Source: Rhizobium sp. Q54 (GTDB lineage Bacteria; Pseudomonadota; Alphaproteobacteria; ATCC43930; CGMCC-115725). From it: 43,652 bases of DNA. Shown here one piece after another: positions 13,700 to 43,632 of this stretch. Position numbers and translations under genes: made by a program. Position 1 is the stretch's first letter, and the number at the start of each line of letters is the position of its first letter. The stretch spans positions 1 through 43,652 of the forward strand of contig CAMATN010000029.1 of assembly GCA_945861155.1 (NCBI GenBank). Direction: 5' to 3'. Under the pieces are notes generated by a model. The model was not told where the DNA came from. It saw only the letters and a list, made by a program, of their open reading frames with translations, and did no database searches.

Positions 13700-16600
13700 A
13701 TGAGCATTGCCGAGGGCGCATTGCGGCCTGAGGTGACGGAGCCGGCCCCGGCAGACCGACCGGCGCCCGTTGCCGACGCAATTCCGAGGGGTCGGCTGTT
13801 CCGCAAATACGCGCTGGTGTTCGTCGCGCTGGTCGCCTCCGCTTTGCTGATCACCAGCGGCGTCGATTTCTGGTTTACCTACCAGGAGAGCAAGGCCGGA
13901 CTGGTCCGGATACAGCAGGAAAAAGCCGAGGCGGCGGCCCAGCGCATCCAGGAATTTGTCGAGGAGATCGAGCGCCAGATCGGCTGGACCACACATGCGC
14001 AATGGGCGGCGGGGCCGCTCGACCAGCGCCGCCAGGATTATTTCCGCCTGCTGCGCCAGGTGCCGGCGATCACCGAATTGTCGCAGCTCGATCGCCAGGG
14101 CCTCGAGCAGCTGAGGGTCTCGCGGCTATCGATGGACGTGATCGGCAGCGCGGCGGATCTGTCGCAAAACTCCGCCTTCCGGCAGGCAAAGGCGCAGCGG
14201 GTCTGGTTCAGCCCGGTTTATTTCCGCAAGGAGTCCGAGCCATATTTGACCCTCGGCATCGCCCGCGACGGCCGGAATGCCGGGGTGACGGTCGCCGAGA
14301 TCAACCTCAAGCTGATCTGGGACGTCGTCACCGCGCTGCGCATCGGGCAGAGCGGCTATGCCTATGTCATTGACGGGAGCGGTCGGCTGATCGCGCACCC
14401 CGACATCAGCCTGGTGCTGCGCGACACCGTTCTCTCGGGCCTGCCGCAGGTTGCGGGGGCGCTGGCCGCTCCCTCCGGTGCGCGCGAGCGGGCGCAAGGC
14501 GTAACGGTGGCGACAAACCTCGCCGGTCAATCGGTGCTGACCGCGCATGCCGCGATCGCCCCGCTCGGCTGGCGGGTGTTTGTCGAGGTGCCGCTGCGCG
14601 AGGCGTTCGCGCCGCTCTACGGCGCCGCGTGGCGCACCGCGCTGCTGCTGGTCTTTGGGCTGGTCGCGGCGACCCTGGTCGCGCTGGTGCTGGCGCGCCG
14701 CATGACCGGGCCGATTCGCGCCATCGCCGCCGGGGCCGAGCGGATCGGCCGGGGCGAACTCGACCGCCGCATCGACATCCGCACCGGCGACGAACTCGAA
14801 GCCCTCGCCGGGCAGTTCAACGACATGGCGGCGGATTTGCAGAAATCCTATGCCGAACTCGAAGGCAAGGTCGAGGCGCGCACCGCCGAACTCTCCGAAT
14901 CCCTCGACCAGCAGACCGCGACCTCGGAGGTATTGCAGGTCATCAATTCCTCGCCCGGCGATCTCGCCCCGGTATTCGACGCGATGCTTGAAAAGGCGAT
15001 GCGGCTGTGCGAAGCCCCCGCCGGCTACCTGTTACGCTACTACGACGGCGAATTTGCCCTCGCCGCGGAGCGCGGCCTCTCCGACGACTTGGCACAGTAT
15101 CTGACGCATATGGATCAGCCGCTACCCGCTGAAGCCAATACCCGCGTGCTGGAAGGCGAGCCCTATCTACATATTCTCGATCTGAAGGATGACGAGGCCT
15201 ACCGGTCGGGGGCCCCTCTGCGGCGCGCGACCGTCGATCTTGGGGGCCTCCGCACGGGGCTTGCTGTACCGCTCAGCAAGGATAACAACGTGCTTGGCAC
15301 GTTTAGCTTGGCTCGATACGAGGTTCGGCCTTTCACCGACAAGCAGATCGAGCTGGTGCAGAATTTCGCGGCGCAGGCGGTGATCGCGATCGAGAACGCG
15401 CGGCTGATCACCGAAACGCGCGAAGCGCTCGACCAGCAGACCGCCACCGCCGAGGTATTGCAGGTCATCAACTCCTCGCCCGGCGACCTCGCCCCGGTGT
15501 TCGACGCGGTGCTCGATAAGGCGATGCGGCTGTGCGAAGCCTCCTTCGGCTATCTCGGCATCTATGACGGAGAGCGCTTCCGCACGATGGCGACGCTGGG
15601 CCTACCGCCGGATTTCGCTGAATACCGGAAGAGCAACCCGCAACCCGGGCCCGGCAGCACGATGGCCCGCGTGCTGGCGGGCGAGCGCGTCATCAGCGTT
15701 GCCGACTTGATGGCTGATGAGGTCTATCGGGCCGGTGAACCGGCCCGTCGCGCGCTGGTCGATCTCGGAGGCGCCCGCAGCGGCCTGACCGTCGCTCTCG
15801 CCAAGGAAAACGCGGTCCTCGGCGCCTTGATGATTTACCGCCAAGAAATGCGGCCTTTCACCGACAAGCAGATCGCGCTCGTGCAGAATTTCGCGGCGCA
15901 GGCGGTGATCGCGATCGAGAATGCGCGGCTGATCACCGAGACGCGAGAGGCGCTCGACCAGCAGACCGCGACCGCCGAGGTGTTGCAGGTGATCAATTCC
16001 TCGCCCGGCGAGCTCGCCCCGGTATTCGACGCGATGCTCGACAAGGCGATGCGCCTGTGCGGGGCCGCTTTTGGGATGCTGCGTACCTATGACGGTGAAC
16101 TCTTCCACTTGGCCGCGGCCCGCGGCCATCCGCGCTTCGACGAGCGGGTTCGCCGGTTAGGGCCCGTTTCAGCCACCCCGGGTACGACGAATGAGCGGAT
16201 CGTACGGGGTGAAGAGGTCGTCCAAATCCTCGATATCGCGGATGACGAGGGGTACCGACGGGGCGACCCCGGTCGTCGGGCAATGGTGGAGATCGGCGGC
16301 TTTCGCACCTTGCTCGGTGTCGCGTTGCGCAAGGACCAGACCCTCCTTGGCACCCTGCACGTTTATCGCCAAGAAGTCCGCCCCTTTACCGACAAGCAGA
16401 TCGCGCTGTTGCAGAATTTCGCGGCGCAGGCGGTGATCGCGATGGAGAACGCGCGGCTGATCACCGAGACCCGCGAGGCGCTCGACCAGCAGACCGCGAC
16501 GGCCGAGGTGTTGCAGGTCATCAATTCCTCGCCCGGCGATCTCGCCCCGGTGTTCGACGCGATGCTCGAAAAGGCGATGCGTCTCTGTGGCGCGGCGTTC

Positions 16601-19600
16601 GGCATCCTCTCCGGTTTCAACGGGGAAGGTTTTCCTCTGCTTGCGGCGCATGGCGTGCCCGAAACGTACCTTCCGCTTGCCCGCCATCGCCGGCCCCTGC
16701 CCGGAATGCCGCTCGACCGCCTTACCCTCGGTGAAGCCGTCGTGCATATAGAGGACATCACGGCGGGCGATGGTTACCGATCGGGCAACCCCAGAGAACA
16801 GGTTGTCATCGAACAGGCTGGTGCGCGCACGGCGGTGTGGGTAGCGCTGCGCAAGGACGACGCCCTCCTCGGCGCCCTGACGATTTACCACACCGAAGTG
16901 CGTCCGTTCACAGACAAGCAGATCGCGCTGTTGCAGAACTTCGCGGCGCAGGCGGTCATCGCGATGGAAAACGCGCGGCTGATCAACGAGACCCGCGAGG
17001 CGCTCGACCAGCAGACCGCGACCGCCGAGGTGTTGCAGGTCATAAATGCCTCGCCGGGTGACCTCGTGCCGGTGTTCGATGCGATGCTCGATCGAGCGAT
17101 GCGCCTGTGCCAGGCCTCCTTTGGAACCCTGGCGACCCATGATGGCGAGCGCTTCCACACCGCCGCCACGCGGGGGGTGCCGACGGCCTTTGCCGAATTC
17201 AGAAGCCAGAACCCGCCGATCTATGGCCCTGGGACGGCGCCGGCGCGGCTTCTCGAAGGCGAACGGGTCGTCCATATTGCCGATCTCACGGAGGAAGACG
17301 CCTACCGGGCCGGCGAGCCCAATCGGCGTGCCCTGGCCGATCTCGGCGGTGCCCGCACCTCGCTAAACGTGCCGCTCCTCAAGGATGAAGCCGTGCTTGG
17401 CTTCATCAACATCTACCGTCAGGAAGTACGGCCGTTCTCCGACAAGCAGATCGCGCTGTTGCAGAATTTCGCGGCGCAGGCGGTGATCGCGATGGAGAAC
17501 GCGCGGCTGATCACCGAGACGCGTGAGGCGCTCGACCAGCAGACCGCGACCGCCGAGGTGTTGCAGGTCATCAATTCGTCGCCCGGCGACCTCGCGCCGG
17601 TGTTCGATGCGATGCTCGAAAAGGCACATAACCTTTGTGGCGTCGCGTACGGTAGCTTGGAACTCTATGACGGCGAGAATTGCCGCGCGGTTGCGACGCA
17701 CGGGTTTTCGCAGGAATTCGCTGCTCTTTTACGGCAGGGATATCGGGCTGCCGACTCGCCGGCCAGCCGGCCACTGATCGAGGGTGCCCGTTTCGTCCAA
17801 ATCGCCGATGCGGCGCAGATCGACGATCCGGTCTTCCGCAGTGCGGCCGCGCGGGAAGGCATCCGCACGGTGCTGTTCGTGCCGCTGCGCAAAGACGCCG
17901 CGCTTCTCGGGATGATTGCGTCTGCTCGCCGGGAAGTCCGGCAATTCTCCGACAAGGAAACCGCGCTGCTCGAAAATTTCGCCGCGCAGGCGGTAATCGC
18001 GATCGAGAATGCGCGATTGCTCACCGAGACGCGCGAGCGCACCCGCGATTTGCAGGAATCGCTCGAATACCAGACCGCGACCAGCGATGTGCTGAAGGTG
18101 ATCAGCGGCTCGGTGTTCGATCTGGGTCCGGTATTGCAGACCGTGGTGTCGACCGCGATCCGGCTGTGCCGGGCGGACCAGGCGGTGATCTACCGCAATA
18201 TCGACGGGGAATATCGCTGGGCGGCCGGGGACTCGCTGGCCCTCGAATACGAGCGCATCGAGCGCGAGATACGCATCCGGCCGGGCGCCGGCACCCTGGT
18301 CGGCCGCGCCGCTCTCGAAGCCCGCACCGTCCATATCCCCGACGCCTGGACCGACCCACTCTACGAGGCCAAGGACGACGCACGGGTCGGCGGCGTGCAC
18401 ACGATGCTCGGCGTGCCGCTATTGCGCGAGGGCGTGCCGGTCGGGGTCATCGGACTGGCCCGCCGGCGTGTCGAACCGTTCACCGAACGGGAAATCGAGC
18501 TGGTCGCCACCTTCGCCGACCAGGCGGTGATCGCGATCGAGAATGCGCGGCTGCTCGGCGAATTGCGCGAGCGCACCGACGAGCTGGCGCGCTCGGTCGA
18601 GGAATTGAAGGTGCTGGGCGAGGTCGGCCAGGCGGTCAGCTCGACGCTCGATCTGCGCTCGGTGCTGGTGACGATCCTAAACCGCTCGATGGCGCTCGCC
18701 GAGGCCGATGCCGGGGTCATCTTCCGCTACAGCCGGGCCGAACGCGCCTTCCGCTTTGTCGAGGCGGTCGGCTGGGACGAGGCGACGGTCAAAGAGGTGC
18801 GCGATCTGAATGTCGCGGAAGCCGTGACCGCGCTGGGCGAGGCGGTGGCCAATCGCGCGCCGTTGCAGATCGCCGATTTGCGAACGCGGCCAAGCAACCC
18901 GCTGCGCGATTCGTCGCTCGCCGCGGGGTACCGCTCGGTGTTGATCGTCCCGCTGCTCGGCGCTGACCGCATCATGGGCGTGACGATATTGCAGCGCCGC
19001 GCGGTTGGCGAGTTCCCGGCGGCGACCGTGCGATTGATGCAGGCGCTCGCCAGCCAGTCGGTGATGGCGATCCAGAACGCGCGGCTGTTCCGTGAGATCG
19101 CCGCCAAGAGCGAGCAGTTGCTCCAGGCGAGCCAGCACAAATCGCAATTCCTCGCCAATATGAGCCACGAATTGCGCACGCCGCTGAACGCGATCCTCGG
19201 CTACAGCGAATTGATGGCCGACGGCATCTACGGCGAATTGCCGGCGCGTGCGGCCGGGGTGCTGGAGCGCGTGCAGAACAACGGCCGGCATCTGCTCGCG
19301 CTGATCAACGACGTGCTCGATTTGGCCAAGATCGAGGCCGGGCAATTGACGCTGACGCTCGAAGACTATGCGTTGGCCGATGTCGTGCAGTCGGTGGTCA
19401 GCGCCACCGAGGGGCTCGCCACTACCAAGGGGCTCAAGCTCACCGCCGACATCGCGCCGGGGCTGCCGACCGGGCATGGCGACGCGCGCCGGCTGTCGCA
19501 AGTGCTGCTGAACCTGGTCGGCAACGCCGTCAAATTCACCGATGCCGGCGAGGTCGCGATCCGCGCCGCCGCCGAGGGCGGCAATTTCGTCCTGACGGTC

Positions 19601-19873
19601 AGCGATACCGGTCCCGGCATCGCGCCCGGAGACCACGACAAGATCTTCGGCGAATTCCAGCAGGTCGACAACTCGAACACGCGCAAGAAAGGCGGCACCG
19701 GCTTGGGTCTGGCGATCTCGAAGCGCATGGTCGAGATGCATGGCGGCGCGATCTCGGTCGATTCCGAGCTTGGCAACGGCGCCACTTTCCGGGTCGTCCT
19801 GCCGATCCGCGTCGAGGATTTGCCAGGGGATTTGCCAGAGGAGCTGGCCGGGGAACTAATGGGGGCGGCATGA
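13700..19873 (+). CDS. giant membrane histidine kinase: Cache-like sensor, HAMP, eight GAF domains, HisKA, HATPase
   Basis: A 2057-residue sensor kinase. Two membrane segments (about 37-60 and 309-331) flank a periplasmic Cache-like domain; a HAMP follows at about 332-385. Six near-regular units of 174-176 residues start near residue 402, each a GAF core joined by a nearly identical helix reading LDQQTATAEVLQVINSSPG. Two more divergent GAF units (about 1455-1800) follow. The HisKA domain has the phospho-acceptor H1823 (SHELRTPLN). The HATPase has an N box (LVGNAVKF), G1 (DTGPGI) and G2 (GGTGLGL). All catalytic motifs are intact. There is no receiver domain, but the next gene is a receiver overlapping by 4 bp. 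The ligands sensed are unknown. Confidence 0.93.
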   Translation: MSIAEGALRPEVTEPAPADRPAPVADAIPRGRLFRKYALVFVALVASALLITSGVDFWFTYQESKAGLVRIQQEKAEAAAQRIQEFVEEIERQIGWTTHAQWAAGPLDQRRQDYFRLLRQVPAITELSQLDRQGLEQLRVSRLSMDVIGSAADLSQNSAFRQAKAQRVWFSPVYFRKESEPYLTLGIARDGRNAGVTVAEINLKLIWDVVTALRIGQSGYAYVIDGSGRLIAHPDISLVLRDTVLSGLPQVAGALAAPSGARERAQGVTVATNLAGQSVLTAHAAIAPLGWRVFVEVPLREAFAPLYGAAWRTALLLVFGLVAATLVALVLARRMTGPIRAIAAGAERIGRGELDRRIDIRTGDELEALAGQFNDMAADLQKSYAELEGKVEARTAELSESLDQQTATSEVLQVINSSPGDLAPVFDAMLEKAMRLCEAPAGYLLRYYDGEFALAAERGLSDDLAQYLTHMDQPLPAEANTRVLEGEPYLHILDLKDDEAYRSGAPLRRATVDLGGLRTGLAVPLSKDNNVLGTFSLARYEVRPFTDKQIELVQNFAAQAVIAIENARLITETREALDQQTATAEVLQVINSSPGDLAPVFDAVLDKAMRLCEASFGYLGIYDGERFRTMATLGLPPDFAEYRKSNPQPGPGSTMARVLAGERVISVADLMADEVYRAGEPARRALVDLGGARSGLTVALAKENAVLGALMIYRQEMRPFTDKQIALVQNFAAQAVIAIENARLITETREALDQQTATAEVLQVINSSPGELAPVFDAMLDKAMRLCGAAFGMLRTYDGELFHLAAARGHPRFDERVRRLGPVSATPGTTNERIVRGEEVVQILDIADDEGYRRGDPGRRAMVEIGGFRTLLGVALRKDQTLLGTLHVYRQEVRPFTDKQIALLQNFAAQAVIAMENARLITETREALDQQTATAEVLQVINSSPGDLAPVFDAMLEKAMRLCGAAFGILSGFNGEGFPLLAAHGVPETYLPLARHRRPLPGMPLDRLTLGEAVVHIEDITAGDGYRSGNPREQVVIEQAGARTAVWVALRKDDALLGALTIYHTEVRPFTDKQIALLQNFAAQAVIAMENARLINETREALDQQTATAEVLQVINASPGDLVPVFDAMLDRAMRLCQASFGTLATHDGERFHTAATRGVPTAFAEFRSQNPPIYGPGTAPARLLEGERVVHIADLTEEDAYRAGEPNRRALADLGGARTSLNVPLLKDEAVLGFINIYRQEVRPFSDKQIALLQNFAAQAVIAMENARLITETREALDQQTATAEVLQVINSSPGDLAPVFDAMLEKAHNLCGVAYGSLELYDGENCRAVATHGFSQEFAALLRQGYRAADSPASRPLIEGARFVQIADAAQIDDPVFRSAAAREGIRTVLFVPLRKDAALLGMIASARREVRQFSDKETALLENFAAQAVIAIENARLLTETRERTRDLQESLEYQTATSDVLKVISGSVFDLGPVLQTVVSTAIRLCRADQAVIYRNIDGEYRWAAGDSLALEYERIEREIRIRPGAGTLVGRAALEARTVHIPDAWTDPLYEAKDDARVGGVHTMLGVPLLREGVPVGVIGLARRRVEPFTEREIELVATFADQAVIAIENARLLGELRERTDELARSVEELKVLGEVGQAVSSTLDLRSVLVTILNRSMALAEADAGVIFRYSRAERAFRFVEAVGWDEATVKEVRDLNVAEAVTALGEAVANRAPLQIADLRTRPSNPLRDSSLAAGYRSVLIVPLLGADRIMGVTILQRRAVGEFPAATVRLMQALASQSVMAIQNARLFREIAAKSEQLLQASQHKSQFLANMSHELRTPLNAILGYSELMADGIYGELPARAAGVLERVQNNGRHLLALINDVLDLAKIEAGQLTLTLEDYALADVVQSVVSATEGLATTKGLKLTADIAPGLPTGHGDARRLSQVLLNLVGNAVKFTDAGEVAIRAAAEGGNFVLTVSDTGPGIAPGDHDKIFGEFQQVDNSNTRKKGGTGLGLAISKRMVEMHGGAISVDSELGNGATFRVVLPIRVEDLPGDLPEELAGELMGAA
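14903..18061 (+). repeat. six tandem ~525-bp GAF-encoding repeats
   Basis: The start of the linker codons (ctcgaccagcag) recurs at 14903, 15428, 15953, 16481, 17003 and 17531, with a diverged seventh at 18062. The periods are 525, 525, 528, 522, 528 and 531 bp. About 160-170 bp around each junction is nearly identical between copies, while the roughly 350 bp GAF cores differ strongly. Every spacing keeps the reading frame. Confidence 0.92.
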
Positions 19874-36699: not shown

Positions 36700-38646
36700 T
36701 TAGCGATCCTTCTTGTCGCCGTCGTCCGGGCGTCCGCCTGGGCGCGGCCCCGCGCCATCCTGCGGACGCTCCCGTCGCGCGGCGGGCGGTCCGGCGTTCG
36801 CCGCCGGCGCGGAGGTACCCTGCGCGCCGGTATCCGGCGGGGCCGCACCCCGCCGGGCGGCGGCGGGAGGCTCGGCCGCGCCTGGGTTCTGGGCCTCGGA
36901 TGGTGATCGCTGATTCCCCCGCTCGGGACCACGCGGCGCCGATTGCGGCGGGCTCGCGAGCGTTGCAGGAGGCTGCGCGCCGCCGGGGCCGCCGGGGCGT
37001 TCTGGTGCGGCGGTCGGGGCCGAGCGCGGGCCGGTCGCCGGACGCGCCTCGGCGGCATCCGGGCCTCGTCCCCGCGGACCAGGCGGCGGCGTCGGGGCCG
37101 CACTGTCCGGAACAGGCTTGGCGGCGGTTTCGGCGGGGTTGGCGGCACGGGAAGCGGCCCCAGGCTCTCTCGACGGGATCGCGGGCGCTGTGGCTGTTCC
37201 CTGTGGCCTGCCCGGCGCGGTCGTCGTTGTCTGCCTGTTGCCGGGCGGGTCTTCGCTCGCCCGATTGCCGGCCGGCCGCGGCTTGTCGGCCTGTGTCCCG
37301 GTTGGTGGGCTCGCCGGCGGGGCGGTCGTCGCCTGCGTTTGGGCAGGCTTGCCGCTCCCAGGTTGCGCCGGGCTCGGCTGCGCGGTTGGGGTCGGGGTCG
37401 CCGTGGGCGTTGTCGGGCTCGGCCGGGCGGTCGTTGTCGGGGTTGCCGCCGGTGGTGTCGGGGTCGGCTGGGCGGTTGGGCGCGGGGTCGCCGCCGGCGG
37501 CACCGGAATCGGCTGGGCGGTTGGGGTTGGGGTTGGAGTCGCTACCGGCGGCACTGGGCTCGTCGGTACGGGGCTCGGCTGCGCCGTCGAGGTCGGAGCC
37601 GCTGCGGGCGCCGCCGGGCTCGGCTGCGCGCTCGGCGTCGCGACGCGGATCACGTCCGGCTGGCGCGCGGCGCGCTGCGGCAGCTGCACGACGGCGACCG
37701 CGGCCCCCGGGGCCACGGTGCCGGCCGGGATCGCCACCGCCGCCGGAGCGGAACGCGGCGCCGCAGACGGTGCGACCAGCACCACCGGCCCCTGACGGCG
37801 CCAGGTGTTGTTGGGGCCGACCCGGACGTCGCGCGTAATGCGGGTATATTCGACCGTGTTGACCGTGATCCGCTGGGTGCGCCAGTCCGGCCGGCTCCAG
37901 CCCCATAGCGGCTGAACCACCCGGTATCCGTATACCTGGACGCCGGGTCCGATAGTCTCCACCACGACGCCCCGCGCCTCCGCGTAACGTCGCGGCGGCG
38001 GCAGGTAAACCGGCTGATACTGCGGGTGCGGCCATTGGCCGTAGACGATTGTCGGGTTGTAGACCGGCACAAAGACCCGGTCCGGCTGCGCCGAGGCGAT
38101 CACGATCGCCGGTCCTTCGCGGCGGACCGACACCTGCTTCATTTTGTTGATCTGCCCCGATTTTACGGCGAGCTGACGCAGCGCCTGGACCCGGTTCATG
38201 ATTTCGGCCTGCTGCGTCGCGAATGCGACGCCGAGGGCCTGCGTCCAATCGATGTGCTCGGTCATCATCGCGATGACCTGCGGAAAGACGATCAGCGCCT
38301 TGACGCTCGGATCCCACGGCAGCGGATCGAGCGCAGCGACCATGGCATCGTCCTTGAGATCGGCGTTCTTGGGGTCGTCGAGCCATTGCGCGGCTTCGAC
38401 GAGCTGTGGCGGATAGGTCGCCGCCATCAGCACCTGGCCCAGTAGCTGATCGGGGTAGAGCGCGATCGGCGCGACCATCTGGTCGATCTGCTGCCGGGTA
38501 TACTGCGCCGCCGCCGGGTTCGGCGCCGCATTGAGCGCGGCGGTGGCTTGGCCGCGGGTCGGCGGGGCCTGGGCCAGCGCGAGCCCGGGTGTGATCAGCA
38601 GAAACGGCAAAACCTGCGCCATGATCCGCAACCGAAACGATGTCAT
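36700..38646 (-). CDS. secreted DUF3300 protein with Pro/Thr/Ala-rich tail
   Basis: A 648-residue protein. A signal peptide (residues 1-25, ending ALAQA) precedes the DUF3300 domain (about 40-280), recognisable from QQIDQMVAPIALYPDQLLGQVLMAATYP and WTQALGVAF. A Pro-rich putative surface part (VPVYNPTIVYGQWP) follows, then roughly 280 residues of low-complexity Pro/Thr/Ala/Gln with imperfect PTAQPSP-type repeats, then a Gly/Arg/Pro-rich end. DUF3300 function is not known to me. I chose the ATG at 38646 because the signal peptide starts there. Probably periplasmic or outer-membrane associated. Confidence 0.85.
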   Translation of the reverse strand: MTSFRLRIMAQVLPFLLITPGLALAQAPPTRGQATAALNAAPNPAAAQYTRQQIDQMVAPIALYPDQLLGQVLMAATYPPQLVEAAQWLDDPKNADLKDDAMVAALDPLPWDPSVKALIVFPQVIAMMTEHIDWTQALGVAFATQQAEIMNRVQALRQLAVKSGQINKMKQVSVRREGPAIVIASAQPDRVFVPVYNPTIVYGQWPHPQYQPVYLPPPRRYAEARGVVVETIGPGVQVYGYRVVQPLWGWSRPDWRTQRITVNTVEYTRITRDVRVGPNNTWRRQGPVVLVAPSAAPRSAPAAVAIPAGTVAPGAAVAVVQLPQRAARQPDVIRVATPSAQPSPAAPAAAPTSTAQPSPVPTSPVPPVATPTPTPTAQPIPVPPAATPRPTAQPTPTPPAATPTTTARPSPTTPTATPTPTAQPSPAQPGSGKPAQTQATTAPPASPPTGTQADKPRPAGNRASEDPPGNRQTTTTAPGRPQGTATAPAIPSREPGAASRAANPAETAAKPVPDSAAPTPPPGPRGRGPDAAEARPATGPRSAPTAAPERPGGPGGAQPPATLASPPQSAPRGPERGNQRSPSEAQNPGAAEPPAAARRGAAPPDTGAQGTSAPAANAGPPAARRERPQDGAGPRPGGRPDDGDKKDR

Positions 38647-38852: not shown

Positions 38853-39794
38853 ATGCCCGTCATCAAAGCCGCCGATCTCGCCTATGGCCGGTTGCGCTCG
38901 CCCGACCTCGACCAGCAGGAGGAATTCCTGACAGCGTTCGGCATGGTGCGCGCCGACCGCACCAAGACCGCGCTCTATATGCGCGGCACCGATGCGCCCC
39001 ACCACATCCACGTCACCGAACTGGGCGAGCCCAAATATGTCGGCATCGCGTTCCATGCCGCCAGCATGGAAGACCTCGAAAAGCTGGCCCGCACCGACGG
39101 CGCCTCGCCGGTCGAGAGCATCGACGAGCCGGGCGGCGGCAACCGCGTGCGCCTGACCGACCCCGACGGGTTCCAGGTCGAAATCGTCCACGGCATGGAG
39201 ATGCTGCCGAAGATCGCGGTGGTGCGCCCGCCGGTCAATACCGGCGAGGACAAGACCCGCCGCAGGAACGCGCTCTATAGGGTCGAGCGCGGCCCCAGCC
39301 ACGTCAAGCGCATCGGCCATTTCGTCGTGATGACGCCGAATTTCGAGAAGACGCTCGGCTGGTACCGCGAGATGGTCGGGTTCCGCTGCTCGGACGAGGT
39401 CTATGCCGACGAAAAGACCAACATCGTCGGCTCGTTCAACCGGCTCGACCGCGGCGACGACTATGTCGACCATCATGTCTTTTTCTGCATCCGCGGCGAC
39501 AAGTCGGGACTGAACCATTTGTCGTTCGAGGCTGCCGACATCGACGACGTGATGACCGGCCACGAGCACATGAAGGAAAAAGGCTACGAACATTTCTGGG
39601 GCATCGGGCGGCATTCGCTCGGCAGCCAGGTATTCGATTATTGGGGCGATCCGTGGGGCCGCGTGCACGAGCATTGGGCCGATACCGATGTGCTCAACGC
39701 CGGCGTGCCGGCCAATTTATGGGGCCGCGGCGAGCTCAACGGGCCGTGGGGCGAGGGAATCCCGGCGCGCTTCATGGGCCACGCGGTGCGGTAA
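38853..39794 (+). CDS. VOC-family extradiol ring-cleavage dioxygenase
   Basis: A 313-residue two-domain extradiol dioxygenase (2,3-dihydroxybiphenyl/catechol 2,3-dioxygenase type). The C-terminal VOC domain has the iron ligands H156 (IGHFVVM), H222 (LNHLSFEA) and E273 (RVHEHWAD). The N-terminal VOC domain lacks metal residues, as usual. The PROSITE-like segment around H222-E273 is well kept, so it is probably active on a catechol. GGGAGA lies about 8 bases before the ATG at 38853. The Rieske and lactonase genes in the same region may or may not be in the same pathway; no hydrolase or ring-hydroxylating partner is next to it. Confidence 0.9.
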   Translation: MPVIKAADLAYGRLRSPDLDQQEEFLTAFGMVRADRTKTALYMRGTDAPHHIHVTELGEPKYVGIAFHAASMEDLEKLARTDGASPVESIDEPGGGNRVRLTDPDGFQVEIVHGMEMLPKIAVVRPPVNTGEDKTRRRNALYRVERGPSHVKRIGHFVVMTPNFEKTLGWYREMVGFRCSDEVYADEKTNIVGSFNRLDRGDDYVDHHVFFCIRGDKSGLNHLSFEAADIDDVMTGHEHMKEKGYEHFWGIGRHSLGSQVFDYWGDPWGRVHEHWADTDVLNAGVPANLWGRGELNGPWGEGIPARFMGHAVR

Positions 39795-39804
39795 CTCGTC
39801 GTGA

Positions 39805-39841
39805 GCCGGGTCCGGACCCCGTTTGCAGGTGCGGACCCGGC
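39805..39841. terminator. strong hairpin after the VOC gene
   Basis: gccgggtccg (39805-39814) pairs exactly with cggacccggc (39832-39841) over a 17-base loop, 10 bases after the stop. No U-run follows; it may be Rho-independent only in part. It marks the boundary to the lower-GC cassette. Confidence 0.55.
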
Positions 39842-39907
39842 GCCTCCAAAAGAGCCAAATGTTTGAATGCCTTACTGGCAATGCCAACGCCCTCGCTTAA
39901 CCTTGAT

Positions 39908-39940
39908 GAATTGAATTGAATTTGATTCGATTCGCGATTC
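39908..39940. promoter_or_regulatory. AT-rich pentamer-like tract upstream of the lipoprotein cassette
   Basis: A gaattgaattgaattt run is followed by tgattcgattc and gcgattc: degenerate repeats of gaatt/gattc. It is about 70 bp before the lipoprotein start and the richest AT segment nearby, so a promoter is likely here. I cannot fix -35 and -10 boxes. Confidence 0.35.
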
Positions 39941-40010
39941 CGCTGTAGCGTCATTGGCGAGCTGGTTCCACCGCACTCGCGGGAATAAGAAGCCGCTCAA
40001 AGGGGACGCG

Positions 40011-40370
40011 ATGCGGAAGACGCGGATCATGGCGCGCCGAATCAACCCGTGCGCCGCTTTGATTGCAGCGCTGGCGATCGGCCTGTGCGGCTGCGCCTTC
40101 ACCTACACCGATGCTAGCGGCGATCGTCACGTGATCGGCCTGGTCGATATGACCGTACGGGCGCCGGCGGCGCCAGCAACGCTGGCAGGTGATGTGGTCG
40201 AGATCATCAGCCTGGGTCTCTCCCTCGGGCAGAACGCGCAGGGCGGTTACCTCACCGCCGGGTTCAACCGTCAAACCACCGCCGCCTTGCGCGACAACGC
40301 CCTGGTCATCGGCAATCCGATCGCCGCCCTGTCGGCGGACCGCAACCCCGTTCAGGATGCAAAGAAATGA
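40011..40370 (+). CDS. small lipoprotein, first gene of low-GC cassette
   Basis: A 119-residue exported lipoprotein: basic start MRKTRIMARR, a hydrophobic stretch and the lipobox Leu-Cys-Gly-Cys (Cys at about residue 28). The mature part begins AFTYTDASGDRHVIGL and contains VVEIISLGLSLGQNAQGG. I do not recognise a family. AGGGGACG lies just before the ATG at 40011; an internal ATG at 40029 would also give a signal peptide. Its stop overlaps the next gene's start by 4 bp (ATGA), which means coupled translation and joint function. Confidence 0.75.
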   Translation: MRKTRIMARRINPCAALIAALAIGLCGCAFTYTDASGDRHVIGLVDMTVRAPAAPATLAGDVVEIISLGLSLGQNAQGGYLTAGFNRQTTAALRDNALVIGNPIAALSADRNPVQDAKK

Positions 40371-41257
40371 AGCACTTTGGTGCCATCGCAGGCGTTTTGA
40401 CCTGCATCCTGCTCTCCGCCTGCACCGATTACGCGACGTTCGTCACCGCAACCGATATCGGCATCAATCTCGACGCGAAGACCGAGCAGTTGAACATTGG
40501 CTATTCGCGCGCCGAATTGTTCCATGGCCCGGGCTATCCGGAAAAGGGTTCAGCACCTTCGGCGGTTGCCTATATCAGCTCGGACCTCGCGGTATTTTCG
40601 CCAAACGTAAAGCAGCTCTATGCAACCGGCGATGCGGCGGAATTGGTGACGCGACACGACAGTTCATTCAAAGGTGAAGAGAAGACAATCGCAGAGAAGT
40701 CAGATAAATTAGACGGCCACCGCCGGCCGCTGTTCTTCGGCACGGGAACAAATCTCGGGCTGAAGGTTGGATTCACCGGCGACGTGCCCTCCAGCGTCAA
40801 GTTCGGCTTCAACCGCGAGGAATTGTCGATCATCCCAATGCAACGGACAGACCCGTCGGCACAGCAACCCGACAAGTATGCGTCGGTGCTAGCCTCGATC
40901 AACACGGACAACACGGTCACCAATACCTCGGGAACCGCGATCAGGCCGACCCAATTCTTTGCCACTGGAGCTGCCGCGCGAAACTTGGCGAAACGCGACG
41001 AGATACGGGGATATTTCGGAGCACAAGCGGAAGCTGCAATAGCCGCTGCATCATTCACCGGCGATTACTCATACGATGACTCAAGCAAGAAACTCGAAGC
41101 CCTTTGGATTCAGGCCGGTAAAATAAACGAGATAAATCAAACAAAGATACATGATTGCATGACCGTGAATAACATCGGCGGAAGAATTTCATTTTTAATT
41201 AATTCCAGAACTCAAAAGGAACGCGACGCAGTGCTTTCTTGTGTCTCACGGAGTTAA
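40367..41257 (+). CDS. lipoprotein of unknown function, second gene of low-GC cassette
   Basis: A 296-residue lipoprotein with the lipobox Leu-Leu-Ser-Ala-Cys (Cys at about 19). The mature protein is mixed alpha/beta, with VTATDIGINLDAKTEQLNIGYSR and TNLGLKVGFTG, which look like outer-membrane-proximal beta strands. No family is recognised. The AT content rises sharply toward the 3' end (from about 40930), with codons unlike the flanking genes. Two Cys near the C-terminus (HDCMTVNN and LSCVSRS) could pair. It overlaps the first lipoprotein gene by 4 bp and is followed after 13 bp by the 49-residue gene. Confidence 0.75.
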   Translation: MKHFGAIAGVLTCILLSACTDYATFVTATDIGINLDAKTEQLNIGYSRAELFHGPGYPEKGSAPSAVAYISSDLAVFSPNVKQLYATGDAAELVTRHDSSFKGEEKTIAEKSDKLDGHRRPLFFGTGTNLGLKVGFTGDVPSSVKFGFNREELSIIPMQRTDPSAQQPDKYASVLASINTDNTVTNTSGTAIRPTQFFATGAAARNLAKRDEIRGYFGAQAEAAIAAASFTGDYSYDDSSKKLEALWIQAGKINEINQTKIHDCMTVNNIGGRISFLINSRTQKERDAVLSCVSRS

Positions 41258-41270
41258 TAAGGAGGTAAAT

Positions 41271-41420
41271 GTGCCAACGGACACCATTCCGAACGTGCTC
41301 GATGCCGAGGCGTTGGGCAGAATTGTAAAGCAACAAGCATTAGAGGGTGCCACAAGCATTGTCGTCACCCGCAATGAGAACGGGACTTATAATGTCGTTG
41401 CGATCTTTCCGGACAGGTGA
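41271..41420 (+). CDS. 49-residue small protein with a perfect Shine-Dalgarno
   Basis: A GTG-started frame (MPTDTIPNVLDAEAL...) of 49 codons plus stop. AAGGAGGT lies four bases before the GTG: the best ribosome site in the window. Codon composition is sensible throughout and there is no membrane segment. The predicted fold is an N-terminal helix followed by two strands (SIVVTRNENG and NVVAIFPDR). It sits 13 bp after the lipoprotein stop, so it is the third gene of the cassette. No known family is recognised; an immunity or regulatory role is only a guess. Confidence 0.7.
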   Translation: MPTDTIPNVLDAEALGRIVKQQALEGATSIVVTRNENGTYNVVAIFPDR

Positions 41421-41540
41421 GAGCGACGGCTATGGTGCTTAGGCCGGCCAGTTTGCTCTTTTCGAAGTAGCGGCAATTTTACCACCATACCACTGCCTCA
41501 GTATGTGGAGTCGATCCAGCAACCTAGCAAGGAGAAGCAA

Positions 41541-42149
41541 ATGGCAGATTTTATCATCACGCCTGGTCTGAGATTTGTAAGCCGAGCTGGCTGGGTCGCA
41601 AGCCAGTCCTTGCCTCGGCTGGGCGGGTCTGTGCCCCGCACGGACCGGACCCATGTGATCATTCATCATACTGTGAGCCCCGATAACGACGAATCCCCGA
41701 ACATCTGGGACAGCGATGCCAGCATATTCAGCCGAATGCGACGACTGCAAACCGTGCGTCCCGATCTGGGGCTTGACGTACCATACAACTTCGTAGCCTT
41801 CATTACCAACGATGGTGTGGTCATATGCGAAGGACGAGGTGAGGACCGCACAGGCGCACACACCAAGGGACATAATACCAGAGGGATAGCTGTTTCGTTC
41901 GCCGGAGATTTCGAGAACAAAGCCGTCGGCTCAACTATACTGGCTGATCGCATGCCATTGCTGTCGAATTTCCTCCAATGGTTGCGGACCGACGCCAGCC
42001 ATCCAGCGTACGGAAACTTCGAGCCGATGAGGAACCTGGGCACTCTGCGTCCAAGTGCTCGACAGGTTTTCTTCCATCGGGATTTCGCTCAGACCGCCTG
42101 CCCGGGCGGTCTTCTGGAGGATCACCTCACCAGGGTTGCGTTCGTGTAG
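41541..42149 (+). CDS. PGRP/Amidase_2-type N-acetylmuramoyl-L-alanine amidase
   Basis: A 202-residue zinc amidase of the peptidoglycan-recognition-protein/Amidase_2 fold, which cleaves the bond between N-acetylmuramate and L-alanine. The metal ligands are H42 (IIHHTV), H179 (FFHRDF) and C187 (ACPGG), with the catalytic Tyr Y82 (VPYNFV). The PGRP-like opening FVSRAGWVA and the GIAVSFAGDF strand are kept. There is no signal peptide, so it must be exported by another route or act on internal or external peptidoglycan after lysis. AAGGAGA precedes the ATG at 41541 by 6 bases. GC is lower than in the flanks. Gap to the 49-residue gene is 120 bp. Confidence 0.88.
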   Translation: MADFIITPGLRFVSRAGWVASQSLPRLGGSVPRTDRTHVIIHHTVSPDNDESPNIWDSDASIFSRMRRLQTVRPDLGLDVPYNFVAFITNDGVVICEGRGEDRTGAHTKGHNTRGIAVSFAGDFENKAVGSTILADRMPLLSNFLQWLRTDASHPAYGNFEPMRNLGTLRPSARQVFFHRDFAQTACPGGLLEDHLTRVAFV

Positions 42150-42267
42150 CGAAAGGGGACTATCTCAATAGGGAGGGCGGAATGCTCTCCGCCGTTTTGT
42201 CGAGAATTGGAGTAGCGACTCACTTGTCTCGGCCTTATCCTCAGGGCAGGAAATTCGGGGAGTTCTC

Positions 42268-43632
42268 ATGAAAACCTTCGTGCGTTGCGGCAGTCTGTTC
42301 ACCGGGCGCGAGGATGAGCCGTGCGACGGCGCGATGCTGGTCTTCGATGAAGAGGGCCGCCTCGCCTATGTCGGCGCCGAAGCCGCCGCGCCGCGCCGGG
42401 CGCAGACCGACCGGCTGCTCGATCATTCGGGCTCGTTCGTGATGCCGGGCCTCATTGACGTGCACACCCACCTCGCCTATGGCAACGCCAAGTCGGAAGA
42501 GGACATCGACCTCTACAGCCCGCTCGAGTTCCGGGCGTTGCGCGGCATGTTCTTCGCGCAGAAGGTCGCGGCCTCGGGCTACACCGCGATCTGCTCGCCG
42601 GGCGACGCGGGCCAGATCAGCCTGTCGATCCGCAACGCGATCCGCGCCGGCCTGTTCGACGGGCCGCGGGTCATGGCGGCGGGCCCGTATCTGACGACGC
42701 ATCAGGGCCTGACCGATTGGTATCCGACCTGGATCGGCGCGCCGACGACCTCGATCGGCAAGCTCGTCACCAACATCAACGAGGCGATCGAGGAGGTTCG
42801 CTCTCAGGTCAAGAACGGCGTCGATTGCATCAAGCTCGCGCTCGACGGCATCCAGCGCCGGCCCGACGGCGAGCTGATCGCGGCCTTCACCCAGGACGAG
42901 ACCGACATCATCGTGCGCGAGACGCACCGGCTGGGCAGGAAGGCGATCTCGCATTCGGTCGGCCGCGAGGCGACGCTCTACGCGGCGCGGGCCGGGGTCG
43001 ATTTGATCTTCCACGGCTTCGATCTCGACGACGAGTGCATCGCGGCGATGCTCAAATCGGGCAGCATGCTGTGCCCGACCTTGACCCATCCGCGCAATTT
43101 GATCGATTTCACCCAGCCGCACGATCCGGCGGCCCAGAAGGGCCGCATCGAGCAGACCGAACGGCGTTACCGGACCGGTGTCGCCAATCTCCGCCGGGCC
43201 GTCGCCGCCGGCGTGCCGTTCCTGACCGGCACCGATAGCGGTTTCGCAATCACGCCCTACGGCGAGTGGCACGCCAAGGAACTCGAACTCTTCGTCGCCG
43301 ATCTCGGCTTCAGCCCGGCGGCGGCGTTGCGCGCGGCGACCGAGACAAATGCCCGGTTCATGTCGCACGGAGACCAGATCGGCGTGCTCGAACAGGGCCG
43401 CGCCGCCGATTTCATCGTGCTCGACGGGTCGCCGCTCGACGATATCCGCATATTGCAGGACCGAAGGCGGCTGCGCGCCGTCCATATCGCCGGCAAGGAG
43501 CTAAAGATCGCCGACCGGCCCTACGACCCGCGCCAGGTCACCGATTTCGCGCTGACGAACTGGAGCGACCTCTACACCCAGGCGCGGGTCGCCGAATTGG
43601 CCGCCGGGCGGTCTCGGCTGGCGGCGGAATAG
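42268..43632 (+). CDS. metal-dependent amidohydrolase (imidazolonepropionase-like)
   Basis: A 454-residue amidohydrolase-superfamily enzyme. The composite beta-sandwich has the N- and C-terminal strands (FVRCGSLFTG; GRAADFIVLDGSP). The TIM barrel carries H66-x-H68 (DVHTHL), the probable bridging Lys in CIKLALDG, His ligands in ISHSVG and IFHGFD, and Asp in TGTDSGF. All metal residues are present, so it should be active. Members hydrolyse imidazolonepropionate, prolidase-type dipeptides or aryl dipeptides; the substrate here is not evident. The gene is complete at 43632, 20 bases before the window ends. GC returns to the high value of the chromosome. Confidence 0.88.
   Translation: MKTFVRCGSLFTGREDEPCDGAMLVFDEEGRLAYVGAEAAAPRRAQTDRLLDHSGSFVMPGLIDVHTHLAYGNAKSEEDIDLYSPLEFRALRGMFFAQKVAASGYTAICSPGDAGQISLSIRNAIRAGLFDGPRVMAAGPYLTTHQGLTDWYPTWIGAPTTSIGKLVTNINEAIEEVRSQVKNGVDCIKLALDGIQRRPDGELIAAFTQDETDIIVRETHRLGRKAISHSVGREATLYAARAGVDLIFHGFDLDDECIAAMLKSGSMLCPTLTHPRNLIDFTQPHDPAAQKGRIEQTERRYRTGVANLRRAVAAGVPFLTGTDSGFAITPYGEWHAKELELFVADLGFSPAAALRAATETNARFMSHGDQIGVLEQGRAADFIVLDGSPLDDIRILQDRRRLRAVHIAGKELKIADRPYDPRQVTDFALTNWSDLYTQARVAELAAGRSRLAAE

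Follow-up and report, generated by a model that had tools for sequence, protein, structure and literature searches.

Among described systems, the amidase predicted at the locus analysed here comes closest to the type-2 N-acetylmuramoyl-L-alanine amidases (Amidase_2/PGRP, PF01510). It shares their core motifs and expected zinc-site residues, but differs in falling below the Pfam cut-off, in having no signal peptide that we could see, and in having three bacterial proteins as the closest relatives found. AmpD, described as cytoplasmic in excerpts of PMC6403190, contains the same type of domain. A wall hydrolase without a signal peptide beside periplasm-facing proteins also recalls the T6SS peptidoglycan effector-immunity pairs, and excerpts of PMC6099711 describe an outer-membrane lipoprotein, Tli1, as the immunity protein against a phospholipase. 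The locus differs from these pairs in that no T6SS gene was recognised nearby and the genes preceding the amidase also exist without it. Tae1-4 have folds of other kinds.

In the window, as we call the whole stretch of 43,652 nucleotides that was analysed (Rhizobium sp. Q54, contig CAMATN010000029.1), the amidase is a bare domain of 202 residues, unlike the WHIX-type T6SS effectors, whose N-terminal extensions include one predicted PGRP, one AmpD-like and two M15-like domains according to the portions available of PMC12135965. Amidase-type phage endolysins resemble it as bare amidases without a signal peptide, and through its matches to PHROG lysis families; the differences are that the window offers no phage context and that its nearest phage matches show 27-35 % identity.

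Layout, composition and site of the locus

Four genes, all on the plus strand, occupy positions 40011-42149 (Table 1). The gene calls agreed with an earlier note, made from the letters alone, that had placed a four-gene cassette here and ended it before the amidohydrolase at 42268. Its two coupled lipoproteins were borne out by a four-base overlap (ATGA) and by lipoboxes; the lipoboxes, the missing amidase signal peptide and the AT-rich tract near 39890-39940 were all judged by eye. The 49-residue protein that it had listed has a gene with an AGGAGG and homologues in three genomes, G025, G326 and G028.

Table 1. Features of the locus and of its borders (positions in the window)
Feature	Position	Strand	Description
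Glyoxalase/dioxygenase-family gene	38853..39794	+	Left flank; Pfam
Left-border hairpin	39805..39841	+	3' of glyoxalase-family gene; arms 39805-39818/39828-39841; no T run
lipo1	40011..40370	+	119-aa lipoprotein; lipobox-like LCGC
lipo2	40367..41257	+	296-aa lipoprotein; lipobox LSAC; two tandem repeats and a C-terminal domain
lipo2 repeat 1	40427..40651	+	Residues 21-95
lipo2 repeat 2	40721..40993	+	Residues 119-209
lipo2 C-terminal domain	41051..41257	+	Residues 229-296; apart from the repeats, still 5' of micro, in G028
micro	41271..41420	+	49 aa; GTG start; AGGAGG at 41260-41265
amidase	41541..42149	+	Predicted PGRP-like Amidase_2, 202 aa; ATG start; AGGAGA at 41530-41535
Right-border terminator-like hairpin	42172..42200	+	3' of amidase; T run; consensus match
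Amidohydrolase	42268..43632	+	Right flank; Pfam

The strong hairpin that had been noted before the cassette, together with the AT-rich tract, was found again: its arms are 93 % complementary, and none of 200 shuffles folded as well (-28.9 kcal/mol, z -2.9). The hairpin at 42172-42200 is of unexceptional stability (z -1.35). Terminator-like sites numbered six in 39700-42400, against 2.8 in shuffles, and the scan found no such hairpin on the plus strand between micro and amidase. No promoter was detected in a scan of the locus (1.2 in shuffles), and no clear target-site duplications surround the amidase, which has its own ribosome-binding site and lies 120 bp from micro. A Pfam scan of 27 window frames recognised no secretion-system, phage, holin or mobile-element gene; an orphan effector would still be compatible with the lack of a secretion-system marker. 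The flanking genes are metabolic by Pfam.

Elsewhere in the window, the minus strand at 36700-38646 encodes a DUF3300 protein whose long proline/alanine-rich tail accounts for very GC-rich, AT-skewed sequence there; a DUF3300 gene was also matched adjoining the glyoxalase gene in G025, G027, G028 and G030. The plus strand at 13700-19873 encodes a sensor histidine kinase of 2057 aa, in which Cache, HAMP and eight GAF stretches were matched.

The GC and tetranucleotide scan that the earlier note had proposed set the region clearly apart. The GC content of 41000-42149 was 0.524, compared with a mean of 0.674 (sd 0.027, minimum 0.632) over 34 windows of the same size in 1-39794, and the tetranucleotide distance of 40011-42149 was 0.437, compared with a maximum of 0.287 over 18 windows. 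Third-position GC (GC3) was 0.60-0.62 in lipo2, micro and amidase, against 0.86 and 0.89 in the two flanking genes. Since the GC of lipo1 is normal (0.653, GC3 0.79), the note's description of low GC with deviant codon use applies to three of the four genes. The region is atypical and was probably acquired, as the note had supposed. Divergence from G025 is also faster in lipo1 (65-67 % identity), lipo2 (51-52 %) and micro (40 %, or 58 % over 31 residues) than in the glyoxalase gene (84 %).

We compared the site in eight genomes of the genus: that of the window has all four genes, and G025 only the first three, in the order glyoxalase, lipo1, lipo2, micro, amidohydrolase. No amidase was found at this site or in the rest of the 79 %-complete G025 genome. 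The site is empty in G027, G028 and G030, where the glyoxalase-family gene and the amidohydrolase lie about 80-140 bp apart. In G031 it holds another gene (L072 237-1718, 493 aa) with weak similarity to Phosphodiest, below Pfam's cut-off; the G026 contig starts 148 bp 5' of the amidohydrolase, and G029 gave no match. The gap has therefore held at least two different inserts. Because G025 has the trio without the amidase at the same site, the two parts are separable and each can be tested alone. Since the trio lacks the amidase in G326 as well, we think it more likely that the amidase was gained later; arrival of all four genes followed by a loss in G025 would take the same number of events.

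It is quite possible, if somewhat short of an even chance, that these are neighbours by chance, an insertion-prone spot having collected an uncharacterised trio and, separately, an unrelated amidase. The different gene in the gap of G031, the restriction of the four-gene set to the window, and the 120-bp gap and separate ribosome-binding site of the amidase all agree with this. On the other side, the genes run in one direction, the terminator-like hairpin comes after the amidase with none on the plus strand before it, and a second, unrelated signal-less wall hydrolase adjoins the same lipoprotein pair in G583. A composite anatomy, the trio plus a separately derived amidase, is very probable.

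Elsewhere in G028, with a luciferase-like enzyme gene on one side and an FAD enzyme gene on the other, lies a lipo2 fragment: the lipo2 C-terminal domain stands 5' of a micro homologue and downstream of a frame break. The stretch (L006 1981-2543) reads as a membrane-anchor-like frame, the frame break, the C-terminal domain and the micro homologue, the latter two together without the repeats.

The lipo1-lipo2-micro module and its family

The genes lipo1, lipo2 and micro are a three-gene module that recurs in G025 and G326. None of the three proteins matched a Pfam, NCBIfam or PADLOC family at E<=1, PADLOC gave no family at this threshold for any of the four proteins, and a literature search found nothing on this locus among the entries listed, in line with the earlier note, which could match the set to no known system. 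A search of 43 order genomes recovered lipo2 from three, the window's own, G025 and, as a fragment, G028; lipo1 as a single query matched 31 of the 43 at E<=1, with only the window's and G025 (7.5e-45) below 0.001.

A two-sequence lipo2 profile matched six of 385 class genomes at E<=0.01, namely the window's, G051, G326 and three others (G045, G411 and G331, E 0.002-0.01), which were dropped as chance after their frames had been inspected. G051 and G326 each have, in other genomic contexts, a lipo1 homologue that overlaps lipo2, with a small gene next in line. Leave-one-out profiles recovered lipo1 at E 4e-8 and 2e-6 and lipo2 at 6e-46 and 6e-14, respectively, as well as micro in G326 (E 0.0024), each recovered trio frame being the best of its own stretch. 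The small gene of G051 had no similarity to micro recognisable in the profile scan.

A later lipo2 profile matched nine of 398 genomes at E<=0.001. The window's and G583 were kept, and the other seven, Amidase_3 look-alikes, were left out of the family count; lipo1 of G583 was recovered by a profile built without that sequence (E 8e-9). Later lipo2 profiles reached G448 (two of 48, with G583) and G802 (two of 40, with G051). G448 has a lone lipo2 family member, and in G802 a weakly supported lipo1-like gene (E 0.003) precedes two genes for lipoproteins with a single repeat each (E 7e-11 and 0.008). The combination of lipo2 and lipo1 is found again in genomes from two or more classes of the phylum. 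Similar MFS transporter genes adjoin the lipoprotein genes in G051 and G802 (L070 3769-5049, L101 5149-6576), both in one order, perhaps at a shared site.

The earlier note's suggestion of four genes as one conserved set was not upheld, since none of 14 other loci scanned with all four profiles had all of them. Among the loci covered, the outcome that the note had named as refuting it, homologues always lying apart, applies to the amidase (absent from G025, and with relatives that lack the trio) but not to the trio, which stays together in G025 and G326.

The homologues of micro lie directly 3' of lipo2 in G025 and G326, and 3' of the lipo2 C-terminal domain in G028; with homologues at the corresponding position in these three genomes, micro looks like a real gene. 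As a single query it gave weak matches (E 9e-4 in G025, 0.52 in G028). Leave-one-out profiles, run against the frames of the stretch concerned, gave E 3e-13 for G025 and 1e-13 for G028. A PHROG match of micro (E 0.049) looks like chance, and scattered PDB matches, from E 0.011, were taken as chance.

Lipo2 arose by internal duplication: its repeats match each other at E 5e-13, and none of 100 column shuffles came near. Their motif is approximately T-x-T-x-x-G, a turn, and G-[YF]-x-R-x-E, ending in A-T-G-x-A-A, although the members furthest removed deviate from it in places. Lipo1 matched repeat 1 with an hhalign E of 0.004, which none of 100 shuffles reached, and repeat 2 with 0.027, which one of 100 reached with an odd score, possibly a parsing slip. 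These matches are suggestive of lipo1 carrying one degenerate copy of the hairpin motif. Hydrophobic and polar residues alternate in the strands, which on this reading may form a beta structure that is exposed or lies in the outer membrane. The predicted structure of lipo2 (mean pLDDT 31) was too poor for use.

The lipo2 profiles repeatedly matched one stretch of Amidase_3 enzymes at borderline scores (PDB 4bin_A, E 0.02). Seven genomes gave Amidase_3-type matches at E 4e-5 to 8e-4, and the five inspected by eye were AmiC/AmiB-like. As the histidine in the SIHADA motif of these enzymes has no partner in lipo2 and lipo2 has no Pfam Amidase_3 match, we judged the similarity to be chance and rejected, though did not disprove, a kinship of lipo2 with AmiC-type Amidase_3 enzymes.

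A PGRP-like amidase of narrow distribution

The amidase is predicted to be a PGRP-like Amidase_2 enzyme. As a single sequence it scored 24.7 bits against PF01510 (E 3.2e-5), narrowly missing the curated cut-off of 26. Core motifs of the PGRP type are present (IIHHTVS, PYNF, GRGEDRTGAHTKGHN and HRD...TACPG), and H42, H43, Y82, H179, T185 and C187 are invariant in all four aligned members, the amidase and three relatives. By comparison with T7 lysozyme and PGRPs, we take H42 (of the H42-H43 pair), Y82, H179, T185 and C187 to be the zinc-site residues; they correspond to the set His, Tyr, His, Lys/Thr, Cys. Within the C-terminal motif, His, Thr and Cys line up with those of PGRP3, and the HHT motif lines up with a bumblebee PGRP. 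The best solved matches by sequence were animal PGRPs (E down to 6e-12), followed by T7 lysozyme and other amidases. An AlphaFold model, at a mean pLDDT of 39, was too uncertain for use. The PF01510-type match and the zinc-site residues, with no signal peptide seen by eye, agree with the PGRP-like amidase of the earlier note.

The amidase was found in one of 289 class genomes at E<=0.001 and in one of 398 phylum genomes at E<=1e-10 with a four-sequence profile, both times the window's own. At E<=0.001 it was found in one of 43 order genomes, again the window's own, eight more giving E 0.03-0.6 with partial coverage only. These counts bear on whether it is a cytoplasmic recycling enzyme like AmpD, with the trio an unrelated envelope module. 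The lack of a visible export signal would suit such an enzyme, as would the domain type that it has in common with cytoplasmic AmpD; against it, no AmpD-labelled chain was among the solved matches listed (at E<=0.1 or E<=0.001), which were led by the animal PGRPs. Because the amidase is so rare, the household role that the earlier note had held against its own proposal is disfavoured, and we consider it decidedly unlikely.

A single-protein pattern scan of 84,980 species, with one genome per species, finds close relatives only; it yielded, from 35 candidate stretches, three relatives with 57-61 % identity over their full length, one from an uncultured Roseobacter sp. and two from Candidatus Thiodiazotropha MAGs. 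All three likewise lack a visible signal peptide. A profile scan of the surrounding stretches found neither lipo2 nor micro; a lipo1 match near the relative at L049 (E 0.035) is a 36-residue frame and was taken as chance. Behind each relative, 9 bp on or overlapping it, comes a frame whose product looks secreted; in the two symbionts this is an SH3_3 protein, in Roseobacter a protein of no family. The symbiont stretches (L048 6001-7005 and L049 6001-7005), with the amidase, a 9-bp spacing and the secreted-looking SH3_3 gene, may be a second hydrolase-partner pair. Thiodiazotropha symbionts encode and express T6SS components according to the excerpts available of PMC11171427.

In PHROG the amidase also matched phrog_822 (E 5e-9) and phrog_1493 (E 8e-8), both families of phage amidases or endolysins, and it matched the amidases of 14 phage records, none over 80 % of the length; two plasmid matches were weak (Streptomyces 31 %, Crassaminicella 26 %). 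These phage matches would fit a lysis unit in which the amidase is an endolysin and outer-membrane lipoproteins act like spanins. Rz/Rz1 spanins form an inner-membrane/outer-membrane pair, which two lipoproteins do not provide, and no holin or phage gene was recognised beside the amidase. Moreover, lipo2 of the window matched none of 50,697 phage and 72,556 plasmid records; nor did lipo2 of G051 and G326 match any plasmid, lipo2 of G583 any phage or micro any plasmid, and IMG/VR viral pattern scans in which each of the four proteins was represented among the queries gave no confirmed match. We regard a lysis unit as very improbable.

A possible link between the lipoproteins and wall hydrolases

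The composite locus would have been built at one site, between the glyoxalase-family and amidohydrolase genes. The trio, a module that also exists elsewhere alone, would have arrived first, and a PGRP-like peptidoglycan amidase of separate origin would then have been added behind it in this lineage.

In G583 a Peptidase_M15_3 gene (E 2e-23), whose product has no visible signal peptide, is followed by lipo2 and then lipo1; mnmE and a JAB-family gene flank the group. Wall hydrolases without a signal peptide and of different folds therefore stand beside lipo2 at two (window/G025 and G583) of about six independent sites, the others being G051, G326, G802 and G448; this count was noticed after the fact and has no background rate beside it. 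At these others no wall hydrolase was found among the nearest large genes scanned: the neighbours are MFS and MMPL transporter genes in G051, MFS and epoxide hydrolase genes in G802, a cyclase and a DsbA-like protein in G326, and a chemotaxis-type protein, DUF1804 and an ATPase in G448.

We propose that the lipoproteins face the periplasm from the outer membrane, where their repeats would bind wall hydrolases lacking an export signal and hold them in check, or give protection against them. To reach its target the amidase would then need another route, either injection into neighbouring cells or escape when cells lyse, on the pattern of effector-immunity pairs. The pairing of the same lipoproteins with a different signal-less wall hydrolase in G583 speaks for such a guard, as do the three amidase relatives, which have no visible signal peptide and stand next to genes for secreted-looking proteins. 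The proposal is weakened by the presence of a hydrolase at only two of the roughly six sites, by the persistence of the trio in G025 without the amidase, by the 120-bp gap between micro and amidase, by the lack of a secretion-system family among the 27 frames scanned with Pfam, and by the position of the lipoproteins, upstream of the amidase here, when the secreted-looking gene of its relatives is downstream. The single PGRP and AmpD-like cases and the M15-like domains among WHIX effectors fit an effector-immunity arrangement, though they do not prove it. The functional link, which draws on two loci of about six, is thus offered tentatively, and a neighbourhood of chance would be equally likely.

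A more elaborate version, which we think rather unlikely, would make lipo1 and lipo2 a new family of duplicated beta-hairpin lipoproteins that form a general outer-membrane guard or docking platform, with interchangeable signal-less peptidoglycan hydrolases (the PGRP amidase here, the M15 peptidase in G583) supplied by gene shuffling and micro as a small cytoplasmic partner.

Taken together, the trio, without a convincing family in four libraries and yet recurrent, is an uncharacterised bacterial module. If its lipoproteins do control signal-less wall hydrolases, they would represent a new kind of envelope guard.
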